In this document: positions 30,702 through 61,935 of the stretch, in pieces
How positions within the stretch are numbered: the first letter of the stretch is position 1
Layout: every line of letters starts with the position of its first letter
NCBI GenBank assembly: GCA_016841245.1
Contig: JAENZN010000015.1
Span: 1-61,935 of the forward strand
Length of the DNA: 61,935 bases
Direction: 5' to 3'
From: Syntrophomonas sp.
Lineage (GTDB): Bacteria; Bacillota; Syntrophomonadia; Syntrophomonadales; Syntrophomonadaceae
Notes under the pieces: generated by a model
What the model was told of the DNA's origin: nothing
The model's database searches: none
What the model saw: the letters and a program-made list of their open reading frames with translations, nothing else
Program-made: the position numbers and the translations under genes

Positions 30702-30717
30702 TGCAAAGTTTGTGCCA
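30702..30717 (-). promoter_or_regulatory. sigma-54 promoter (-24/-12) of the TRAP/acyl-CoA synthetase operon
   Basis: On the minus strand TGGCACAAACTTTGCA fits the consensus TGGCAC-N5-TTGC with no mismatch in either box. It lies about 236 bases upstream of dctP and reads toward it. An activator with the sigma-54-contacting GAFTGA loop is encoded right upstream. Confidence 0.88.
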
Positions 30718-50900: not shown

Positions 50901-52946
50901 ATCAAAGTACAAGATATAATGACCATCAACCCTTCAGTGCTTAACCCAGAAGCAACGCTGCAGGATGCTGCCAGGATCTTTATAGAAAAAGAAGTGACCA
51001 GCGCTCCGGTAGTAGATAAGGATTACAATCTGCTTGGTATGTTCGATAAGACCCAGCTTTTTCATGCAGCAGCATACGGGGATGACTTAAAAAACCAGAT
51101 AAAAGATTATATGATTAAAACCCCACCAACCGTAACGCCGCAGGACGATATCAAGATAATGCAGAAAGCTGGTGGCTTCAGCCAAATACCTGTTGTCGAT
51201 GGTCAAAAATTAATCGGTACAATCTTTCGGAAACATCTTGTTGGTTTGTATTACGATGAGCTTATGACTGTTATCGACTCAACGTACAATGCCATTATAA
51301 GTATAGATTCAGATGAAAATGTTAATATATTTAATCCGGCTGCCGAAAAGCTGTTGGGGAAAAAGCGTTCAGAGGTAGTAGGGGCTCCTTTTTCCAGTCT
51401 TTTTCCCAGCGGTCGGCTTCAGAAAATCATACAGAGCGGAAAGGTAGAACCCACTCAGAAATTTGTATTCAATGACAGACATTTTATCTCTAACCGAACT
51501 CCAATACTGGTTGACGGGAAAGTAGTAGGAGCAGTAGCAATATTGCAGGATGTTTCAGACTTTGACGCTATCATCGAAGAATTACAGACCACCTTGGAAA
51601 TAAAAGAAGAACTGGATGCTATAATTGAGTCTTCTTTTGATGGAATATTCGTAACTGATGACACAGGTAAAGTTATTCATGCCAATGAAGCTTACAAACG
51701 TATTACAGGAATTAATATGGAAGATGTCCTGGGCAAAAAGATGGACGAGCTGGTTGAAGCCGGTGTATACGATAAATCTGTAAGCATGCTGGTACGGGAT
51801 CGTCTGGAACCAATCACTCTTACTCAGGAAATCAGCACAGGAAAGACCGTTCTTGTTACCGGTAATCCTATTTTCGATAAACAAGGTAATTTATTCCGGG
51901 TCGTTACCAATGTACGTGACATTACCGAATTAAATACATTGAAAAAAGAAGTGCAGCACCTTCATTTCCAGGAAAAATTAAAAAAAGCTCAGCTGTGCGA
52001 AAACTATATCGTTAGATCCTCTAAATCAAGAGAACTTCTGGATCTTATTATACGTCTTGGTCAGGTGGATTCAACCGTCTTGATTTATGGTGAATCAGGT
52101 GTGGGGAAAGAAATGGTAGCAAATATCCTGCACAACAATAGTATTCGCAAAGACAAGCCTATAGTTCACATAAATTGTGGAGCTATACCTGCCGCCCTCC
52201 TGGAATCCGAGCTTTTTGGTTATGAAGCGGGCGCATTTACCGGAGCCCAGAAACATGGAAAAGCAGGATTATTTCAGATTGCAGATAAGGGAGCACTCTT
52301 TCTGGATGAAATAGGCGAACTACCTTTCAGCCTGCAGGTTAAGCTGCTGCGTGCTATCCAGGAATCTGAAATCACCCGGGTAGGTGGGGTTAAGCCGATT
52401 AAGATAGATGTACGCATCATAGCTGCAACAAATCGGAATTTGCAGGACATGGTAGCGAATGGCACTTTCAGGAAAGACCTTTTCTACCGGTTGAATGTCG
52501 TACCGGTTAATGTACCTCCTCTCAGAGAACGCCGGGAAGAAATTCCTGCTCTGGTTTATCACGTTATAAAAAAACTAAACGACAGGTACGGTCTCAATAA
52601 GACAGTGTATGAAAAAGTTGTAGATCAGCTTATAAATTATGATTGGCCCGGAAATATACGGGAACTGGAAAACATCATTGAGCGAGCTTATGTTACCGTC
52701 CCAGGTAACATTATAAAAGATGTCAATTTAGAGTCATCAGATACTCAGCAGAAGGAATTCCCCTTAAAATTACCCGATGAGCTTAAGTTGAAAAAAGCAG
52801 TTGAAGAGTTTGAGAAAATGCTGATCCTAAATTCTTTGAAACGATATGGCAGTACCCGGAAAGCAGCCGTGGTGCTCGGGGTCAGTCAACCAACCGTATG
52901 CCGCAAAGCAGCACGTTACGGTATTCGCCTGGCAGACTATGAATAA
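50901..52946 (+). CDS. sigma-54-dependent activator, CBS-CBS-PAS-PAS-AAA-Fis HTH, start possibly AUC
   Basis: About 681 residues, co-linear with the activator at 30901-32958. It has two CBS motifs (1-115), PAS domains (about 125-220 and 235-340), AAA+ with GESGVGKE (about 397) and GAFTGA (about 443), then a C-terminal HTH (STRKAAVVLGVSQPTVCRKA). The first standard start is ATG 50919, 24 bases from the ribosome binding site GGAGGG. Six codons earlier, ATC (50901) is 6 bases behind it and begins xKVQDIMTINPSVL, the standard CBS opening MKVxDIM. So translation probably begins at AUC. It precedes the 4-hydroxybutyrate genes and a sigma-54 promoter and is their expected activator. Confidence 0.92.
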   Translation: MKVQDIMTINPSVLNPEATLQDAARIFIEKEVTSAPVVDKDYNLLGMFDKTQLFHAAAYGDDLKNQIKDYMIKTPPTVTPQDDIKIMQKAGGFSQIPVVDGQKLIGTIFRKHLVGLYYDELMTVIDSTYNAIISIDSDENVNIFNPAAEKLLGKKRSEVVGAPFSSLFPSGRLQKIIQSGKVEPTQKFVFNDRHFISNRTPILVDGKVVGAVAILQDVSDFDAIIEELQTTLEIKEELDAIIESSFDGIFVTDDTGKVIHANEAYKRITGINMEDVLGKKMDELVEAGVYDKSVSMLVRDRLEPITLTQEISTGKTVLVTGNPIFDKQGNLFRVVTNVRDITELNTLKKEVQHLHFQEKLKKAQLCENYIVRSSKSRELLDLIIRLGQVDSTVLIYGESGVGKEMVANILHNNSIRKDKPIVHINCGAIPAALLESELFGYEAGAFTGAQKHGKAGLFQIADKGALFLDEIGELPFSLQVKLLRAIQESEITRVGGVKPIKIDVRIIAATNRNLQDMVANGTFRKDLFYRLNVVPVNVPPLRERREEIPALVYHVIKKLNDRYGLNKTVYEKVVDQLINYDWPGNIRELENIIERAYVTVPGNIIKDVNLESSDTQQKEFPLKLPDELKLKKAVEEFEKMLILNSLKRYGSTRKAAVVLGVSQPTVCRKAARYGIRLADYE

Positions 52947-53197: not shown

Positions 53198-53213
53198 TGG
53201 TACAAAGTTTGCA
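53198..53213 (+). promoter_or_regulatory. sigma-54 promoter (-24/-12) of the 4-hydroxybutyrate operon
   Basis: TGGTACAAAGTTTGCA fits TGGCAC-N5-TTGC with one mismatch (T for C in the -24 box) and correct spacing. It lies 118 bases before the abfD start codon. Confidence 0.82.
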
Positions 53214-53330: not shown

Positions 53331-54809
53331 ATGACCTTAAAAAAACCGCAGGAGTATATCGATGACCTCAGGGCTATGGCCGGAGATATCGATGTCTACA
53401 TGTTCGGTGAAAAAGTTGAAAATTACGTGGACAACCCAATTATTCGGCCATCTATAAATGCTATGGCCATGACCTACAAATTGGCTCAGGAGCCTGAATA
53501 TGAAGATTTGATGACAGAAGTATCACCTCTAACTGGCGAAAGAGTTAATCGTTTCGCCTACCTGCATCAAAGTAAAGAAGACTTAATTAAGAAGGTAAAG
53601 ATGCTTCGTCTTCTGGGACAAAAAACTGGCTGCTGTTTCCAGAGGTGCGTAGGAATGGATGCGATTAATGCTTTATACAATACCACCTTCGAAATGGATG
53701 CCAAACATCAAACAAATTATCATGAGCGCTTCAAAAAGTGGCTGATTGACATCCAGAACAAGGATCTCACTATCGATGGGTGCATGACTGATGCCCGCGG
53801 TGACAGATCCAAATCACCCGGACAGCAACCTGATCCAGATGCTTATCTGCATGTAGTTGAGAAAAGAGAAGATGGTATTGTAGTGCGCGGATGCAAGCTT
53901 CATCAGACCGGTATGATCAATTCCCATGAAATTTTGGTTATGCCTAATAACAGTCTCAAAGCAGGAGAAGAAGAGTGGGCTGTTTGTTTTGCAATTCCCT
54001 TGAATACACCCGGTATGATCTATGTATATGGACGTCAATCCTGTGATACCAGAAAACTTGAGGGTGGCGACATCGATACTGGAAACAAATATTTCGGTGG
54101 ACAAGAAGTAATGACGATTTTTGAAGATGTTTTCGTACCCTGGGACAGAGTTTTTATGTGCGGAGAAACTGACTTTACAACTATGATAGTTGAACGCTTT
54201 GCGGGCTATCACCGTCAGAGCTATGGCGGATGCAAAGTTGGTGTAGGTGACAATCTGATAGGTTGTGCCAAGGCACTGGCTGATTATCAGGGAGTAAGCA
54301 AAGCTTCTGGAATAAAAGACAAAATTGTGGAAATGTGTCACCTCAATGAAACTTTATATGCCTGCGGTATTGCCTGTTCAGCCGAAGGCCGGGAAACAGC
54401 AGCCGGCAATTATCTGATCGATATCTTGCTCGCCAATATCTGCAAGCAGAATGTTACCCGTTTCCCTTATGAAATTGCCAGATTAGGCCAGGATATTGCC
54501 GGTGGTTATTTCGTGACCATGCCTTCAGAAAAAGACTTTGATATTCCTGAAGTGGGTGAACTGGTGAAAAAATATTCAGCCACCTCTACTGAAGTTCCCG
54601 TTGAAAACCGTCAGCGCATGCTGCGATTGATGGAAAATCTTACTCTGGGATGCGCCGCAGTCGGTTACCTGACCGAGTCAATGCACGGTGCGGGTTCACC
54701 ACAGGCACAGAGAATCATGATTACGAGGTTGATCGACCTAGAACATCGTAAGGAACTGGCTGAAAAGCTATGCGGAGTTAAAGAAAATAACGACGTAGAC
54801 TGGGAATAA
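53331..54809 (+). CDS. abfD: 4-hydroxybutyryl-CoA dehydratase / vinylacetyl-CoA delta-isomerase
   Basis: 492 residues, flavin- and [4Fe-4S]-containing enzyme that converts 4-hydroxybutyryl-CoA to crotonyl-CoA. The cluster ligands known from the Clostridium enzyme are kept here as Cys102, Cys106, His294 and Cys301 (CCFQRCVGMD and AGYHRQSYGGCKVG). The FAD part is acyl-CoA dehydrogenase-like (HQTGMINSHEILVMPNN, YGRQSCDTRKLEGGDID). Start ATG 53331 is 6 bases behind GGAGTG; an upstream GTG-type frame at 53313 contains that site. It heads the plus-strand operon with the cysteine-rich protein, CoA-transferase and permease, behind a sigma-54 promoter. Crotonyl-CoA can enter beta-oxidation or butyrate formation. 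Confidence 0.95.
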   Translation: MTLKKPQEYIDDLRAMAGDIDVYMFGEKVENYVDNPIIRPSINAMAMTYKLAQEPEYEDLMTEVSPLTGERVNRFAYLHQSKEDLIKKVKMLRLLGQKTGCCFQRCVGMDAINALYNTTFEMDAKHQTNYHERFKKWLIDIQNKDLTIDGCMTDARGDRSKSPGQQPDPDAYLHVVEKREDGIVVRGCKLHQTGMINSHEILVMPNNSLKAGEEEWAVCFAIPLNTPGMIYVYGRQSCDTRKLEGGDIDTGNKYFGGQEVMTIFEDVFVPWDRVFMCGETDFTTMIVERFAGYHRQSYGGCKVGVGDNLIGCAKALADYQGVSKASGIKDKIVEMCHLNETLYACGIACSAEGRETAAGNYLIDILLANICKQNVTRFPYEIARLGQDIAGGYFVTMPSEKDFDIPEVGELVKKYSATSTEVPVENRQRMLRLMENLTLGCAAVGYLTESMHGAGSPQAQRIMITRLIDLEHRKELAEKLCGVKENNDVDWE

Positions 54810-54841
54810 GCTCAATTAATGCGAAAAAGGATCTAAAACCA

Positions 54842-55141
54842 ATTAAGCTCAGGATAAAATATTGCGGCGGATGCAACCCGGTAATAAACCGGAAGCAGCT
54901 GGTTGATGAGGTACTAAACTGCCTTAAAGTTTCAACCCGGGTTGAACTGACACAGAACTATGCAGATATAGCACTGGTAGTCTGCGGATGTCCAGCTGCC
55001 TGCGTTGATTTGGATAAAATTAGAAATCAAGCTGAATATGTAATACTGGTCGCTGGTAACTATATTAATCACTATCAAGTTCCCAGCGACCAAATGGCAA
55101 TAATAATTTGCCAATTAATAAGCGATAGAGAGGAGGTTTAG
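54842..55141 (+). CDS. 99-codon cysteine-rich protein inside the 4-hydroxybutyrate operon, non-canonical start
   Basis: A well-formed frame fills the gap between abfD and the CoA-transferase gene: IKLRIKYCGGCNPVINRKQL, VDEVLNCLKVSTRV, YADIALVVCGCPAACVDLDK, then NHYQVPSDQMAIIICQLISD. It has a CGGCNP motif near the start and CGCPAAC in the middle, so it may bind metal or a cluster or carry redox thiols. The expected Met position is ATT 54842, 10 bases after AAGGA; there is no ATG, GTG or TTG nearby in frame. The family looks like small CGGCNP proteins of anaerobes, whose function I cannot name. Its end supplies the AGGAGG of the next gene. A remnant gene is the alternative. Confidence 0.65.
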   Translation: MKLRIKYCGGCNPVINRKQLVDEVLNCLKVSTRVELTQNYADIALVVCGCPAACVDLDKIRNQAEYVILVAGNYINHYQVPSDQMAIIICQLISDREEV

Positions 55142-55146
55142 TTAAA

Positions 55147-56451
55147 TTGTTGAACTGGCGCGATCACTATATCAATCGTCTATTTCCGGCAAACGAAGCT
55201 GTAAAATGTATCAAGTCAGGTGACAGGGTGGTATTAGGTCACGCTTGCGGCGAACCTCAGCTGCTGCCAGAAGCAATGGTAGCCAGAGCTGACGAACTGG
55301 AGAATGTTGAAATAGTCCATATGGTAGCGATGGGAAAAGGACTATACGCCCAGCCAGAAATGTCTGGACATTTCCGTCATAATGGTCTCTTTATCGGAGG
55401 CCCCACCAGGAAGGCCGTAAAAGAACAAAGGGCTGATTACACTCCCTGCTTTTTTTCAGAAATACCAGCTTTATTCCGGGAGAATAGATTACCGGTAGAT
55501 GTAGCAATGGTTACCATAACACCCCCCGATCAGTTTGGCTTTTGCAGCCTGGGAGTCTCAGTTGATTACACCCTGCAGGCTATCAAATCTGCCAAAACTG
55601 TAATAGCAGAAGTCAATCCCAATATGCCAAGAACACAGGGCAATTCATATATACGAGTGGAGGATATAGACTATTTCGTGGCATGTGATTTACCCATAAT
55701 AGAGCTGGGTCAGCCGCAGATAGGAAATGTCGAAAAGGAAATTGGACGAAATATAGCATCCCTCATTGAAGACGGCTCTACACTTCAGCTGGGAATAGGA
55801 GCTATTCCTGATGCGGTTCTCAAATTCCTGAATGACAAAAACGACTTAGGGATTCATTCGGAAATGTTCTCCGATGGTGTAGTTGAACTGGCCGAAGCAG
55901 GGGTCATAACCTGTAAACACAAGACTCTTCACCCAGGCAAAATGATTGTTACTTTTCTTATGGGAAGCAAAAAGCTGTATCAATGGGTTAATGAAAATCC
56001 CATGGTAGAAATGTACCCGGTAGATTATGTAAATGACCCATATGTTGTTATGCGTAATGACAAAATGGTTTCCATCAACTCAGCCCTTCAAGTAGATGTT
56101 CTAGGACAGGTAGCAGCAGATACACTCGGCCCGGTACAGTTCAGCGGAGTCGGTGGGCAGGTCGATTTTGTAAGGGGAGCAAGCAGATCAAAGGGAGGAA
56201 AATCCTTTATTGCCCTACCCTCTACCGCTGCTAAAGGTACTGTTTCCCGAATTGTTCCTTTACTGGATTTAGCATCCAGTGTTACCACCTCCAGAAATGA
56301 CGTAGACTATGTAGTTACAGAATATGGAATAGCCGCTTTGCGGGGCAAGACCATCCGACAGAGAATGGATGCATTAACAAATGTTGCACATCCCGATTTT
56401 CGTAATTACATCAAACAAAAAACCCAGGAGATTTATTTTTCGGACAGGTAA
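55147..56451 (+). CDS. abfT: 4-hydroxybutyrate CoA-transferase / acetyl-CoA hydrolase family
   Basis: 434 residues of the Cat2/AbfT class I CoA-transferase family. The nucleophilic glutamate is Glu239 in GIHSEMFSDGV, with the LQLGIGAIPDAVL stretch before it and EYGIAALRGKTIRQRMDALT near the end. It transfers CoA from acetyl- or butyryl-CoA to 4-hydroxybutyrate to form the AbfD substrate; butyrate:acetate CoA-transfer is a possible alternative. The TTG start (55147) follows AGGAGG at 10 bases; a second TTG directly after it is equally possible. It lies 5 bases after the cysteine-rich gene. Confidence 0.9.
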   Translation: MLNWRDHYINRLFPANEAVKCIKSGDRVVLGHACGEPQLLPEAMVARADELENVEIVHMVAMGKGLYAQPEMSGHFRHNGLFIGGPTRKAVKEQRADYTPCFFSEIPALFRENRLPVDVAMVTITPPDQFGFCSLGVSVDYTLQAIKSAKTVIAEVNPNMPRTQGNSYIRVEDIDYFVACDLPIIELGQPQIGNVEKEIGRNIASLIEDGSTLQLGIGAIPDAVLKFLNDKNDLGIHSEMFSDGVVELAEAGVITCKHKTLHPGKMIVTFLMGSKKLYQWVNENPMVEMYPVDYVNDPYVVMRNDKMVSINSALQVDVLGQVAADTLGPVQFSGVGGQVDFVRGASRSKGGKSFIALPSTAAKGTVSRIVPLLDLASSVTTSRNDVDYVVTEYGIAALRGKTIRQRMDALTNVAHPDFRNYIKQKTQEIYFSDR

Positions 56452-57988: not shown

Positions 57989-58120
57989 CATCCCCCCAAA
58001 AAAAACATGATTTTGATAACTTTTCGATATAAAATATAACAAATGGCAATATTATATTTAATCAATTTATTCTTTTGGCGTTCCTGCTTGATCATCAATA
58101 TGGATGGAGTGAAAACGATT

Positions 58121-58765
58121 ATGACACTGACAATTATAGAAATAGTCTTTTTTGTTTCTTTTATTGCTGCAATCCTCTATTTTAAAATACTTTCGCACCC
58201 TCAGCTGGGAGAAAAAGAAATTGGTCCCTATACTATAGTATACGTACGCAATATAGGTTCAACCTGGTCTACTATCGGTAAGATTAAGGAATTAAAAAAA
58301 TATTTGGGCAGCAAGGGCATTAAATCGAGACTGTACATAAGTATATACCTGACTGACCCTACCATAATTGATACCAATACAATTCCCGGATTAGTTGGGG
58401 CGGTAATCGATGATGCTGATTTACCCTTGGTTGAAGAGCCCTATGCTATTACAACTGTCGCCCCCAGATACGTAGCAACTGCCGCCAACGCCAATCGTCT
58501 GATAGCACTCAATAAAAACGCACTTTATCCCCTTCTTAGAGCTTATATGAATACTAATGGCTATACTAACGCTGAAGAAGAATACATAGAACTATATCAC
58601 CTGGATGAACGGAACGGATTCGGTAATGGATTCTATACTGAAGTATGTACTAAAATAAGAAAGCAGACTGAAGAAGAACTGAAGGAAACGGAAGCATACG
58701 AAAATAGGGGTATAGATGCGGCTTCGAAGCTCTTTGGTGGAAATGGACGCTTTGGGAAAGGTTAA
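58121..58765 (+). CDS. membrane-anchored GyrI-like domain protein
   Basis: 214 residues. One N-terminal transmembrane helix (IIEIVFFVSFIAAILYFKIL) and a GyrI/AraC-effector-binding-like domain: GPYTIVYVRNIGSTWSTIGK, ELKKYLGSKGIKSRLYISIY, LTDPTIIDTNTIPGLVGAVI, EEPYAITTVAPRYVA and EEEYIELYHLDER. The acidic C-terminal tail contains EEELKETEAYENRG. GyrI-like domains bind small hydrophobic molecules. The start was placed at ATG 58121; an ATG at 58100 is possible. It lies outside the terminator of the previous operon. Role unknown. Confidence 0.7.
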   Translation: MTLTIIEIVFFVSFIAAILYFKILSHPQLGEKEIGPYTIVYVRNIGSTWSTIGKIKELKKYLGSKGIKSRLYISIYLTDPTIIDTNTIPGLVGAVIDDADLPLVEEPYAITTVAPRYVATAANANRLIALNKNALYPLLRAYMNTNGYTNAEEEYIELYHLDERNGFGNGFYTEVCTKIRKQTEEELKETEAYENRGIDAASKLFGGNGRFGKG

Positions 58766-59740: not shown

Positions 59741-61935
59741 TTAGATCAAGCTGGATTTCTGCAGCAACCTTCTAACTATCACTGCAACCTCGGCCCTGGT
59801 GATGCTATCCTGGGGAACTATCCGTTCCTCATTTTTCCCCGAAACAATCCCTGCCTCCACGCAGGCAGCTATACTTTCTTTTGCGTATTCTGAAGAATTG
59901 TCTCCATCTTTAAAACCGGAAAGAAGCTCATCGGTTTGTCCAGGGGGGAATTCCGTTGTTAAGCCTGTAATATCCATAGCTCTGGCTATCATGGTCATTG
60001 CCTGCTCACGGGTTATTTTGTCCATTGGTCCGAATTGCCCGTTTCCATATCCGGATATAATTTTATACTCTGAGGCAGTTTTGACAAAATCGCCATACCA
60101 GGCATCATCCTTGACATCAGTAAAGGGATTATTACCGGTTTCGGGTTTTAACCCTAATGCTCTCACTACAACTGCTGCAAATTCAGCACGTGTAATGTCC
60201 CGGTCAGGTTCAAACATATCGTTGCCTATACCACTGATGACCATTCTGGAGCCCATGTCATTGATTTCTTCTTTTGCCCAATGACCGACCGCATCTTTGA
60301 ATTCCAGAGGATGCCACACTACTGAATAGGTGCTATTGGTCAGACTGTTTATTTTTGCATAGTATTTACCATCGATAGCAACAATTATGGTCGGTACATG
60401 TCGTACTGTCCCATCCGGATCAATCACAACTGCCGTAGTAATTTTATCCGGATCGGCTCCATCGGGAATAGCCACCGTCCTTTCAACGTAAGCGTTGAAA
60501 TTGCTGATCTCAATTGTTCGGTTATTACTGGTGCAGGTTAGAGTAAATGTTATGGGAGGAACTACGATGGTGAATCCGCCTGCTTCAGCGGCTTTTGCTG
60601 CTATTTTCGCTGTCTCGTCGGTAGGACCTGCTATTTGAATCTGTACAGTAATATCTTTTAGTTCTACACTTTGTCCAAACTGTTTTGATATCGTGTCAAT
60701 ATTGATATCTTGGGCAGAGAGCATGTAGCTGACATTATCGGTCTTCACTTCTAGCACATCCTGCTTATTGGCCATGTTCTTAAGCATCTGTCCGTTGAGT
60801 TTACCAATTATCACATCGGCTTTGCTATTTATAGGAATGGTGACTACGGCATTGTTACCTACCTCTGCCAGTTTTTGTTCTAGTTTCTTTTCGTCTACGG
60901 TTACTGTGCATATAGTTTTACTGCCTTCAGTTATGTTGGTAATGGTTCCTGCATTAAATATTTTACCATTTACCTGAATATCCACTTCGTTAGCTACGGC
61001 TGACGTGCTATTTCTGCCATTATCTGCCACGGCCTTTGTGGTAAATGATATGCTTGTTACCGCCGAGGTATTGGAAACCGCATCCTCAACAATGACATAG
61101 GCCTTGTAAGAGCTTGATGCACTCAGGCCGGTTACCTTCGCGGTGTTGGCGGCCGCTGCCGCTGCTGCGGTACCTTTGGCTATGGCTGCACCCTGCGCTT
61201 TGATCGTCGCTGCGTCCGGTGCTGCATCTGCTGCGGCATAAACCAGGTAGTAATAGGTTCCTGCTTCATCCGAAGTGAAGTTCAAAGTTGCTGTTGTTGC
61301 TGATATCCCACTGGCACTGCTGGCACTTATAGTTGGGGCCGTGGTGGCGCTTACTGTGATCGGTACGGTCACATCCACAGTCCATGTCCCGTCACTTACT
61401 TCTACTACTACTGTTGTCGTCCCATATACTACACCTGTTACCGTGACTGTTTCGCTGCTTAAAACTGCTGTCGCTATTGCGGCATTCGGGTCAGTTATGA
61501 TTGATGTAATGGTCAATGTGTCCCCGGCATCTTCATCCTCGGCTACATCGGCAGCGATAAAACTGGCTGTACCGGTGCCGGTTATGGTCTGTGTCGGTAC
61601 TGGGCTTTTGGCTGTTGGGGCATGATTTGTCGGTGCTGCCGCTGAAACTGTGATTGGCACGGTCACATCCGCGGTCAATGTCCCGTCACTTACTTCTACC
61701 ACTACTGTCGTTGTCCCATATACTACACCTGTTACCGTAACTGTTTCGCTGCTTAAAACTGCTGTCGCTATTGCGGTATTCGGCTCAGTTACGATTGAGG
61801 TAATGGTCAATGTGTCCCCGGCATCTTCATCCTGAGCTACATCGGCAGCGATAAAACTGGCTGTACCGGTGCCGGTTATGGCCTGTGTCGGTACTGGGCT
61901 TTTGGCTGTTGGGGCATGATTTGTCGGTGCTGCCG
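59741..61935 (-). CDS. SLH-anchored surface protein with repeated adhesion-like domains, C-terminal part (runs off right edge)
   Basis: The frame is open to the window edge, so the N-terminus is missing; the TTG at 61810 is internal (preceded by DVAQDEDAGDTL in frame). From the left end of the protein in view come two Ig/cadherin-like repeats of 98 residues (294 bp; PSPVPTQ...TVTVTGVVYGTT...), then a different Fn3-like unit (ASSASGISATTATLNFTSDE), a segment with NGKIFNAGTITNITEG and a beta-rich stretch. Three SLH domains finish it (FKDAVGHWAKEEINDMGSRM, FTDVKDDAWYGDFVKTASEY, FKDGDNSSEYAKESIAACVE). SLH domains bind pyruvylated cell-wall polymer. It is a cell-surface protein, adhesin or S-layer-associated. 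Confidence 0.88.
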   Translation of the reverse strand, partial: AAPTNHAPTAKSPVPTQAITGTGTASFIAADVAQDEDAGDTLTITSIVTEPNTAIATAVLSSETVTVTGVVYGTTTVVVEVSDGTLTADVTVPITVSAAAPTNHAPTAKSPVPTQTITGTGTASFIAADVAEDEDAGDTLTITSIITDPNAAIATAVLSSETVTVTGVVYGTTTVVVEVSDGTWTVDVTVPITVSATTAPTISASSASGISATTATLNFTSDEAGTYYYLVYAAADAAPDAATIKAQGAAIAKGTAAAAAAANTAKVTGLSASSSYKAYVIVEDAVSNTSAVTSISFTTKAVADNGRNSTSAVANEVDIQVNGKIFNAGTITNITEGSKTICTVTVDEKKLEQKLAEVGNNAVVTIPINSKADVIIGKLNGQMLKNMANKQDVLEVKTDNVSYMLSAQDINIDTISKQFGQSVELKDITVQIQIAGPTDETAKIAAKAAEAGGFTIVVPPITFTLTCTSNNRTIEISNFNAYVERTVAIPDGADPDKITTAVVIDPDGTVRHVPTIIVAIDGKYYAKINSLTNSTYSVVWHPLEFKDAVGHWAKEEINDMGSRMVISGIGNDMFEPDRDITRAEFAAVVVRALGLKPETGNNPFTDVKDDAWYGDFVKTASEYKIISGYGNGQFGPMDKITREQAMTMIARAMDITGLTTEFPPGQTDELLSGFKDGDNSSEYAKESIAACVEAGIVSGKNEERIVPQDSITRAEVAVIVRRLLQKSSLI
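61348..61935 (-). repeat. tandem 294-bp repeats in the SLH protein gene
   Basis: The word ATGGTCAATGTGTCCCCGGC recurs exactly 294 bases apart (61509 and 61803), and the surrounding DNA is nearly identical, with a few changes such as EDEDAG against QDEDAG. The near-identity at DNA level suggests recent duplication or continuing gene conversion. More copies may exist beyond the edge. Confidence 0.8.

Follow-up and report, generated by a model that had tools for sequence, protein, structure and literature searches.

The window analysed here, a stretch of 61,935 nucleotides from Syntrophomonas sp. (contig JAENZN010000015.1, assembly GCA_016841245.1), contains a gene for a 4-hydroxybutyryl-CoA dehydratase (AbfD) followed on the same strand by one for a CoA-transferase. 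It raises the question of whether the space between them encodes a further protein, and what such a protein might do. AbfD, a radical Fe-S flavoenzyme, has a central place in the fermentation of 4-aminobutyrate and succinate and in a carbon-fixation cycle. The first-pass annotation, made from the DNA letters alone, described the space as a 330-base protein-like frame with CGGCNP and CGCPAAC motifs, having no standard start and ending in the next ribosome binding site, and suggested a small protein that assists AbfD.

Translation of positions 54842-55141 gives IKLRIKYCGGCNPVINRKQLVDEVLNCLKVSTRVELTQNYADIALVVCGCPAACVDLDKIRNQAEYVILVAGNYINHYQVPSDQMAIIICQLISDREEV followed by a stop codon, a complete frame of 99 residues in which both motifs are present as described. 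The stop codon of AbfD (54809) and the TTG start of the CoA-transferase gene (55147) are separated by 337 bases rather than 330, and the new gene, here called the CGGCN gene, fills most of this gap, with the AGGAGG of the CoA-transferase gene lying inside its 3' end. The frame is open from 54791, for 116 codons in all, and on the 5' side of C8, the first cysteine codon, it contains no ATG, GTG or TTG, so that the absence of a standard start is borne out.

Homologues with the same core exist. The gene is encoded in 23 of 61 related genomes (E<0.1; two of the matches are marginal), and scanning the GTDB species genomes yielded relatives in 392 candidate stretches, from which 80 loci were retained for neighbourhood counts. 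Across a 76-row alignment of diverse homologues the residues K6, C8, G9, G10, C11, N12, R17, C50 and C54 are invariant; the family signature is an invariant CGGCN, R17 and GC-x3-C, all present in the protein studied here. In two congeneric species the protein is 86% identical and the frame is kept, with no frameshift inside the gene. The nucleotide differences from these two sisters gather at third codon positions, dN/dS is 0.18 and 0.33 (NG86) or 0.25 and 0.47 (YN00), and the gene is under purifying selection in this comparison. Given the homologues in related and GTDB species genomes, and the kept frame and low dN/dS in the two congeners, the frame is not a chance one, and we therefore conclude that it is a real, conserved and uncatalogued small protein gene, which was missed in this stretch because of its start. 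The single protein and the 76-row alignment were both searched against Pfam, NCBIfam and PDB sequences, and neither produced a match above cut-off; a tblastn search of plasmids gave no match. The family is unnamed and is represented by no Pfam or NCBIfam model.

The missing start codon is private to this genome: in 79 of 80 homologues an NTG start lies 6-15 codons before the first cysteine. Eight codons further upstream, the two sister Syntrophomonas genomes carry an ATG in frame, which is lost here together with part of the leader (Table 1), and the ATG left over at 54819 is out of frame. AUU is a rare yet genuine bacterial start codon, as in Escherichia coli infC. The ATT at 54842 occupies the position at which many homologues have their ATG start, and the Shine-Dalgarno duplex before it equals the family median and is stronger than that at the matching position of the sisters (-4.1 and -3.6); the pairing is weaker than that ahead of the AbfD, CoA-transferase and permease genes. 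Since the codon stands where many homologues start and is preceded by a family-typical Shine-Dalgarno sequence, initiation at AUU is plausible, and translation in this genome probably begins there; the alternative is a sequence or assembly error in the leader. The possibility that the gene is a relic, decaying or unexpressed, as the loss of a start present in nearly all homologues and the eight-base leader deletion could indicate, seems very unlikely to us, because the frame is intact, every family-invariant residue is retained, the Shine-Dalgarno sequence is of median strength, and dN to the sisters (0.063 and 0.066) is about that between the sisters themselves (0.059). On the same values, faster decay in the lineage of this genome is unsupported.

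The association with AbfD is close. The AbfD of this locus has the four ligands Cys102, Cys106, His294 and Cys301, in agreement with the CCHC arrangement known for the [4Fe-4S] cluster; as far as the ligands go, its assignment to AbfD holds. All four are kept in 63 of 63 full-length AbfD homologues from the CGGCN loci. In 50 of the 80 loci the gene immediately upstream, in the same orientation, is AbfD; a further 17 loci have AbfD at another place within the retrieved DNA, and of the remaining 13, six end early at a contig edge. Among 299 genomes of the phylum, the CGGCN family occurs in 18 and AbfD (E<1e-60) in 52, and all 18 have both (Fisher 1.3e-15), with 20 of the 22 CGGCN copies adjoining an AbfD gene. 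One genome (G003) has two CGGCN copies, each behind a different AbfD paralogue, and the pair therefore behaves as a unit. Mapped onto a tree of AbfD, presence of the partner requires 8 changes, compared to 23.9 with shuffled labels, which fits an old association with losses, although near-copies also cluster a label. The first-pass suggestion that a cysteine-rich gene lies hidden here and is tied to AbfD is strongly supported.

The association is not obligatory in the other direction: 34 of the 52 AbfD-bearing genomes have no CGGCN homologue, and AbfD genes lacking the partner also keep all of the cluster ligands. AbfD can therefore mature without the CGGCN protein, which is dispensable for AbfD taken as a group. 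We also considered the partner as a marker of cluster-carrying AbfD, and rejected this because partnerless AbfD has the same ligands. We note separately that six loci of Syntrophaceae type (L048, L052, L060, L062, L070 and L071) contain a second AbfD paralogue, only about 35% identical, within a conserved TetR - AbfD-like - SDR block.

The features of the locus are collected in Table 1. The operon runs from a sigma-54 site through AbfD, the CGGCN gene and the CoA-transferase to a permease-like gene, and is likely to be regulated by the activator encoded upstream. At a threshold of 1e-3, nothing in Pfam or NCBIfam matches the permease-like protein. Its gene is kept beside AbfD and CoA-transferase genes in about ten loci, and we regard it as a candidate 4-hydroxybutyrate transporter of an uncatalogued family. 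The whole arrangement fits uptake, activation and dehydration to crotonyl-CoA of a substrate that is presumably 4-hydroxybutyrate. Downstream of the permease gene, 58043-58765 encodes a hypothetical protein of 240 residues with no Pfam match, found in the same place in both sisters. Elsewhere in the window there is a second perfect sigma-54 -24/-12 site (TGGCACAAACTTTGCA, 30702-30717, minus strand), and 59741-61933, also on the minus strand, encodes a large surface protein with tandem near-identical repeats, which runs off the end of the stretch and has a C-terminal part resembling S-layer homology domains.

Table 1. Coordinates of the features at the AbfD locus.
Feature	Position	Strand	Basis or remark
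Sigma-54-dependent activator, CBS and PAS domains, PrdR-like	50919..52946	+	
Sigma-54 -24/-12 site TGGTACAAAGTTTGCA, upstream of abfD	53198..53213	+	0.08 matches expected in whole window
AbfD-type 4-hydroxybutyryl-CoA dehydratase / vinylacetyl-CoA isomerase	53331..54809	+	C102, C106, H294, C301 present
Leader, 8 bases shorter than in congener L003; in-frame ATG lost	54810..54841	+	Comparison with L003
AAAGGA Shine-Dalgarno-like sequence, 10 nt before ATT54842	54826..54831	+	Duplex energy -6.0
CGGCN small protein gene (99 residues and stop)	54842..55141	+	Translation, homologues, alignment, selection
CoA-transferase, acetyl-CoA hydrolase/transferase family; probable 4-hydroxybutyrate CoA-transferase	55147..56451	+	
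Multi-pass permease-like protein, 476 residues	56482..57912	+	Conserved in same operon elsewhere

Other neighbours bear on function. A NifU-domain gene lies directly upstream of the CGGCN gene, touching it or within 26 bases, in 14 clostridial-type loci, some of which have a divergent AbfD or none found nearby; for two of these 14 neighbours the identification is by a Pfam NifU match. No NifU-domain gene was seen near 19 AbfD genes that have no CGGCN partner, and there is none beside the CGGCN gene in our window. Thioredoxin-like genes are found in about ten other loci. Natural fusions also occur, in which the CGGCN domain stands at the N-terminus and is followed by a MaoC-type hydratase (L080, L081 and L104), an enoyl-CoA hydratase (L089 and L097) or a CoA-transferase (L101, 5980-7356). 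These fusions could indicate a structural subunit or channelling adaptor that links AbfD to the next CoA enzyme, whether CoA-transferase, MaoC or enoyl-CoA hydratase, and whose cysteines bind zinc. We consider this improbable, since the fusions may merely join whichever operon gene came next, and an adaptor leaves the NifU neighbour unexplained.

The structure of the protein was predicted using AlphaFold2, with a pLDDT of 92.9. The confident prediction is of a small globular α/β fold, in the order strand, helix, strand, short helix, strand, helix. The C8-x2-C11 pair is placed between the first strand (residues 2-7) and the first helix (residues 17-31), and C50-x3-C54 follows the central strand. 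Because both pairs come after strands, one edge of the sheet could bring them together, and the two loops would then be expected to form a single four-cysteine site. With Foldseek, nothing in the PDB matched at E<0.001; the highest-ranked hits were N-terminal parts of NAD kinases, which we read as a generic α/β arrangement. No profile match to an Fe-S family was significant. In hhalign comparisons with the profiles of thioredoxin-like ferredoxin, Rdx, DGC, IspG and sulfite reductase, taking decoy families as the yardstick, the similarity was only local.

The main rival to a function in cluster handling is that of a thiol-disulfide redox protein, in which CGGC would act as the CxxC of Rdx/SelW or thioredoxin and keep the cysteines of AbfD or CoA thiols reduced, with Cx3C as the resolving pair. 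The strand, CxxC and helix at the N-terminus are common to the CGGCN protein and Rdx/SelW (PF10262), with an hhalign score of 28.7 and a probability of 68% over only 28 columns, and the thioredoxin-like genes nearby point in the same direction. No member matches PF10262 above the curated cut-off: 10 of the 76 members give weak hits, the best with an E of 0.0024, and the protein of our window is not one of them. The likeness stops past the first helix, and the Rdx proteins compared have no second invariant cysteine pair. The leading structural matches include no thioredoxin fold, although this does not prove its absence, and a NifU neighbour is unexpected for a pure thiol protein. On balance we judge a thiol function to be unlikely.

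A small protein that carries electrons, and so maintains the FAD of AbfD or its cluster in the active redox state, would suit a compact fold with four cysteines and a partner that is both a flavin and a cluster enzyme. Catalysis by AbfD is redox-neutral, however, with the flavin radical generated internally, as described in a passage of PMC13101534 that cites Zhang et al. 2015. A pure electron-donor role is therefore less likely, and the neighbour families that were counted include no recurring reductase gene; we assign this explanation a low probability.

The four cysteines are invariant, the constant neighbour is a cluster enzyme and a cluster scaffold is often encoded alongside, a combination that speaks for cluster handling. 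As the best explanation we propose that the CGGCN protein is a four-cysteine, probably [4Fe-4S]-binding accessory that delivers a cluster to AbfD or repairs it, a reading that we hold to fall just short of an even call. The four-cysteine site would hold a labile Fe-S cluster, or hand one on; in the clostridial relatives the cluster would come from the NifU-domain scaffold encoded immediately upstream; and the protein would then give the cluster to the neighbouring AbfD, or rebuild the one there. The [4Fe-4S] site of AbfD, with its single histidine ligand, is oxygen-sensitive in the Clostridium aminobutyricum enzyme. Cluster binding, contact with AbfD and delivery or repair are all inferred here, beyond the linkage, conservation, selection and fold prediction described above. 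The fuller proposal, of a widespread and previously unrecognised family dedicated to Fe-S insertion or repair for 4-hydroxybutyryl-CoA dehydratases, with a NifU-type donor in clostridia and an AUU start in our genome, is more doubtful, and we offer it as a possibility. Among the roles that the first-pass annotation had listed, cluster assembly or maintenance is thus the best supported, by the 14 NifU loci, the AbfD ligands and the four cysteines; electron supply has become less likely, and CoA-related chemistry draws its support from the fusions with CoA enzymes.

No dedicated maturation or protection factor for AbfD was found in searches of open-access papers, which also yielded no paper on the CGGCNP motif and nothing relevant on AbfD together with maturation, NifU, operon or CD2340/CD2341. 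A conserved partner would provide a direct genetic and biochemical handle on the building or repair of the unusual AbfD cluster, and might be of use when the enzyme is expressed in a foreign host.

Several known systems resemble the CGGCN protein in part. The best match by VIA-align was the [4Fe-4S] domain of IspG (PF04551; Z 8.0 over 84 residues, 2.9 Å), where the start of the matched range sets C8 and C11 on C265 and C268, cluster ligands of IspG in a numbering consistent with the PDB sequence. The match was absent with the model of a second, distant family member, and a Z near 8 can be reached without true relationship; we therefore treat it as a lead only. The two share CxxC and a similar length, whereas the CGGCN protein has no TIM-barrel part, the similarity is below significance, and the GPGE motif that provides the Glu ligand of IspG after its third cysteine is absent from the CGGCN family, which has the invariant C54 at +4 instead.

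The second half of the protein resembles the [4Fe-4S] domain of sulfite and nitrite reductases (PF01077), which is of similar length, its GCPxxC recalling their GCPNxC (hhalign score 25.6, compared to 21.3 for the best decoy; probability 23.5%). The GC-x3-C is conserved, but the first cysteine pair of the CGGCN protein has the form CxxC, and the two align weakly. PF01077 was not among the matches listed by hmmscan, and the CGGCN protein stands alone at 99 residues and has no siroheme part, with similarity below significance. In profile comparison the CxxC end resembles Rdx and the GCPxxC end the reductases, in both cases locally and slightly above decoys. The thioredoxin-like [2Fe-2S] ferredoxin (PF01257) scored 16.1, with a probability of 1%. 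The DGC domain (PF08859) is likewise cysteine-rich, with GCxxxC in about 100 residues, and has no CGGCN core; 7 of the 76 members matched it weakly, with a best E of 0.017.

A parallel in genetic setting is offered by the NifU C-terminal domain and Nfu-type Fe-S carriers (PF01106), which are likewise small stand-alone cysteine proteins encoded with an Fe-S client enzyme. NifU was not among the matches listed for the 76 members, and its hhalign score of 20.0 is at decoy level. It is often the direct neighbour of the CGGCN gene, and has a single CxxC where the CGGCN protein combines CxxC with Cx3C.
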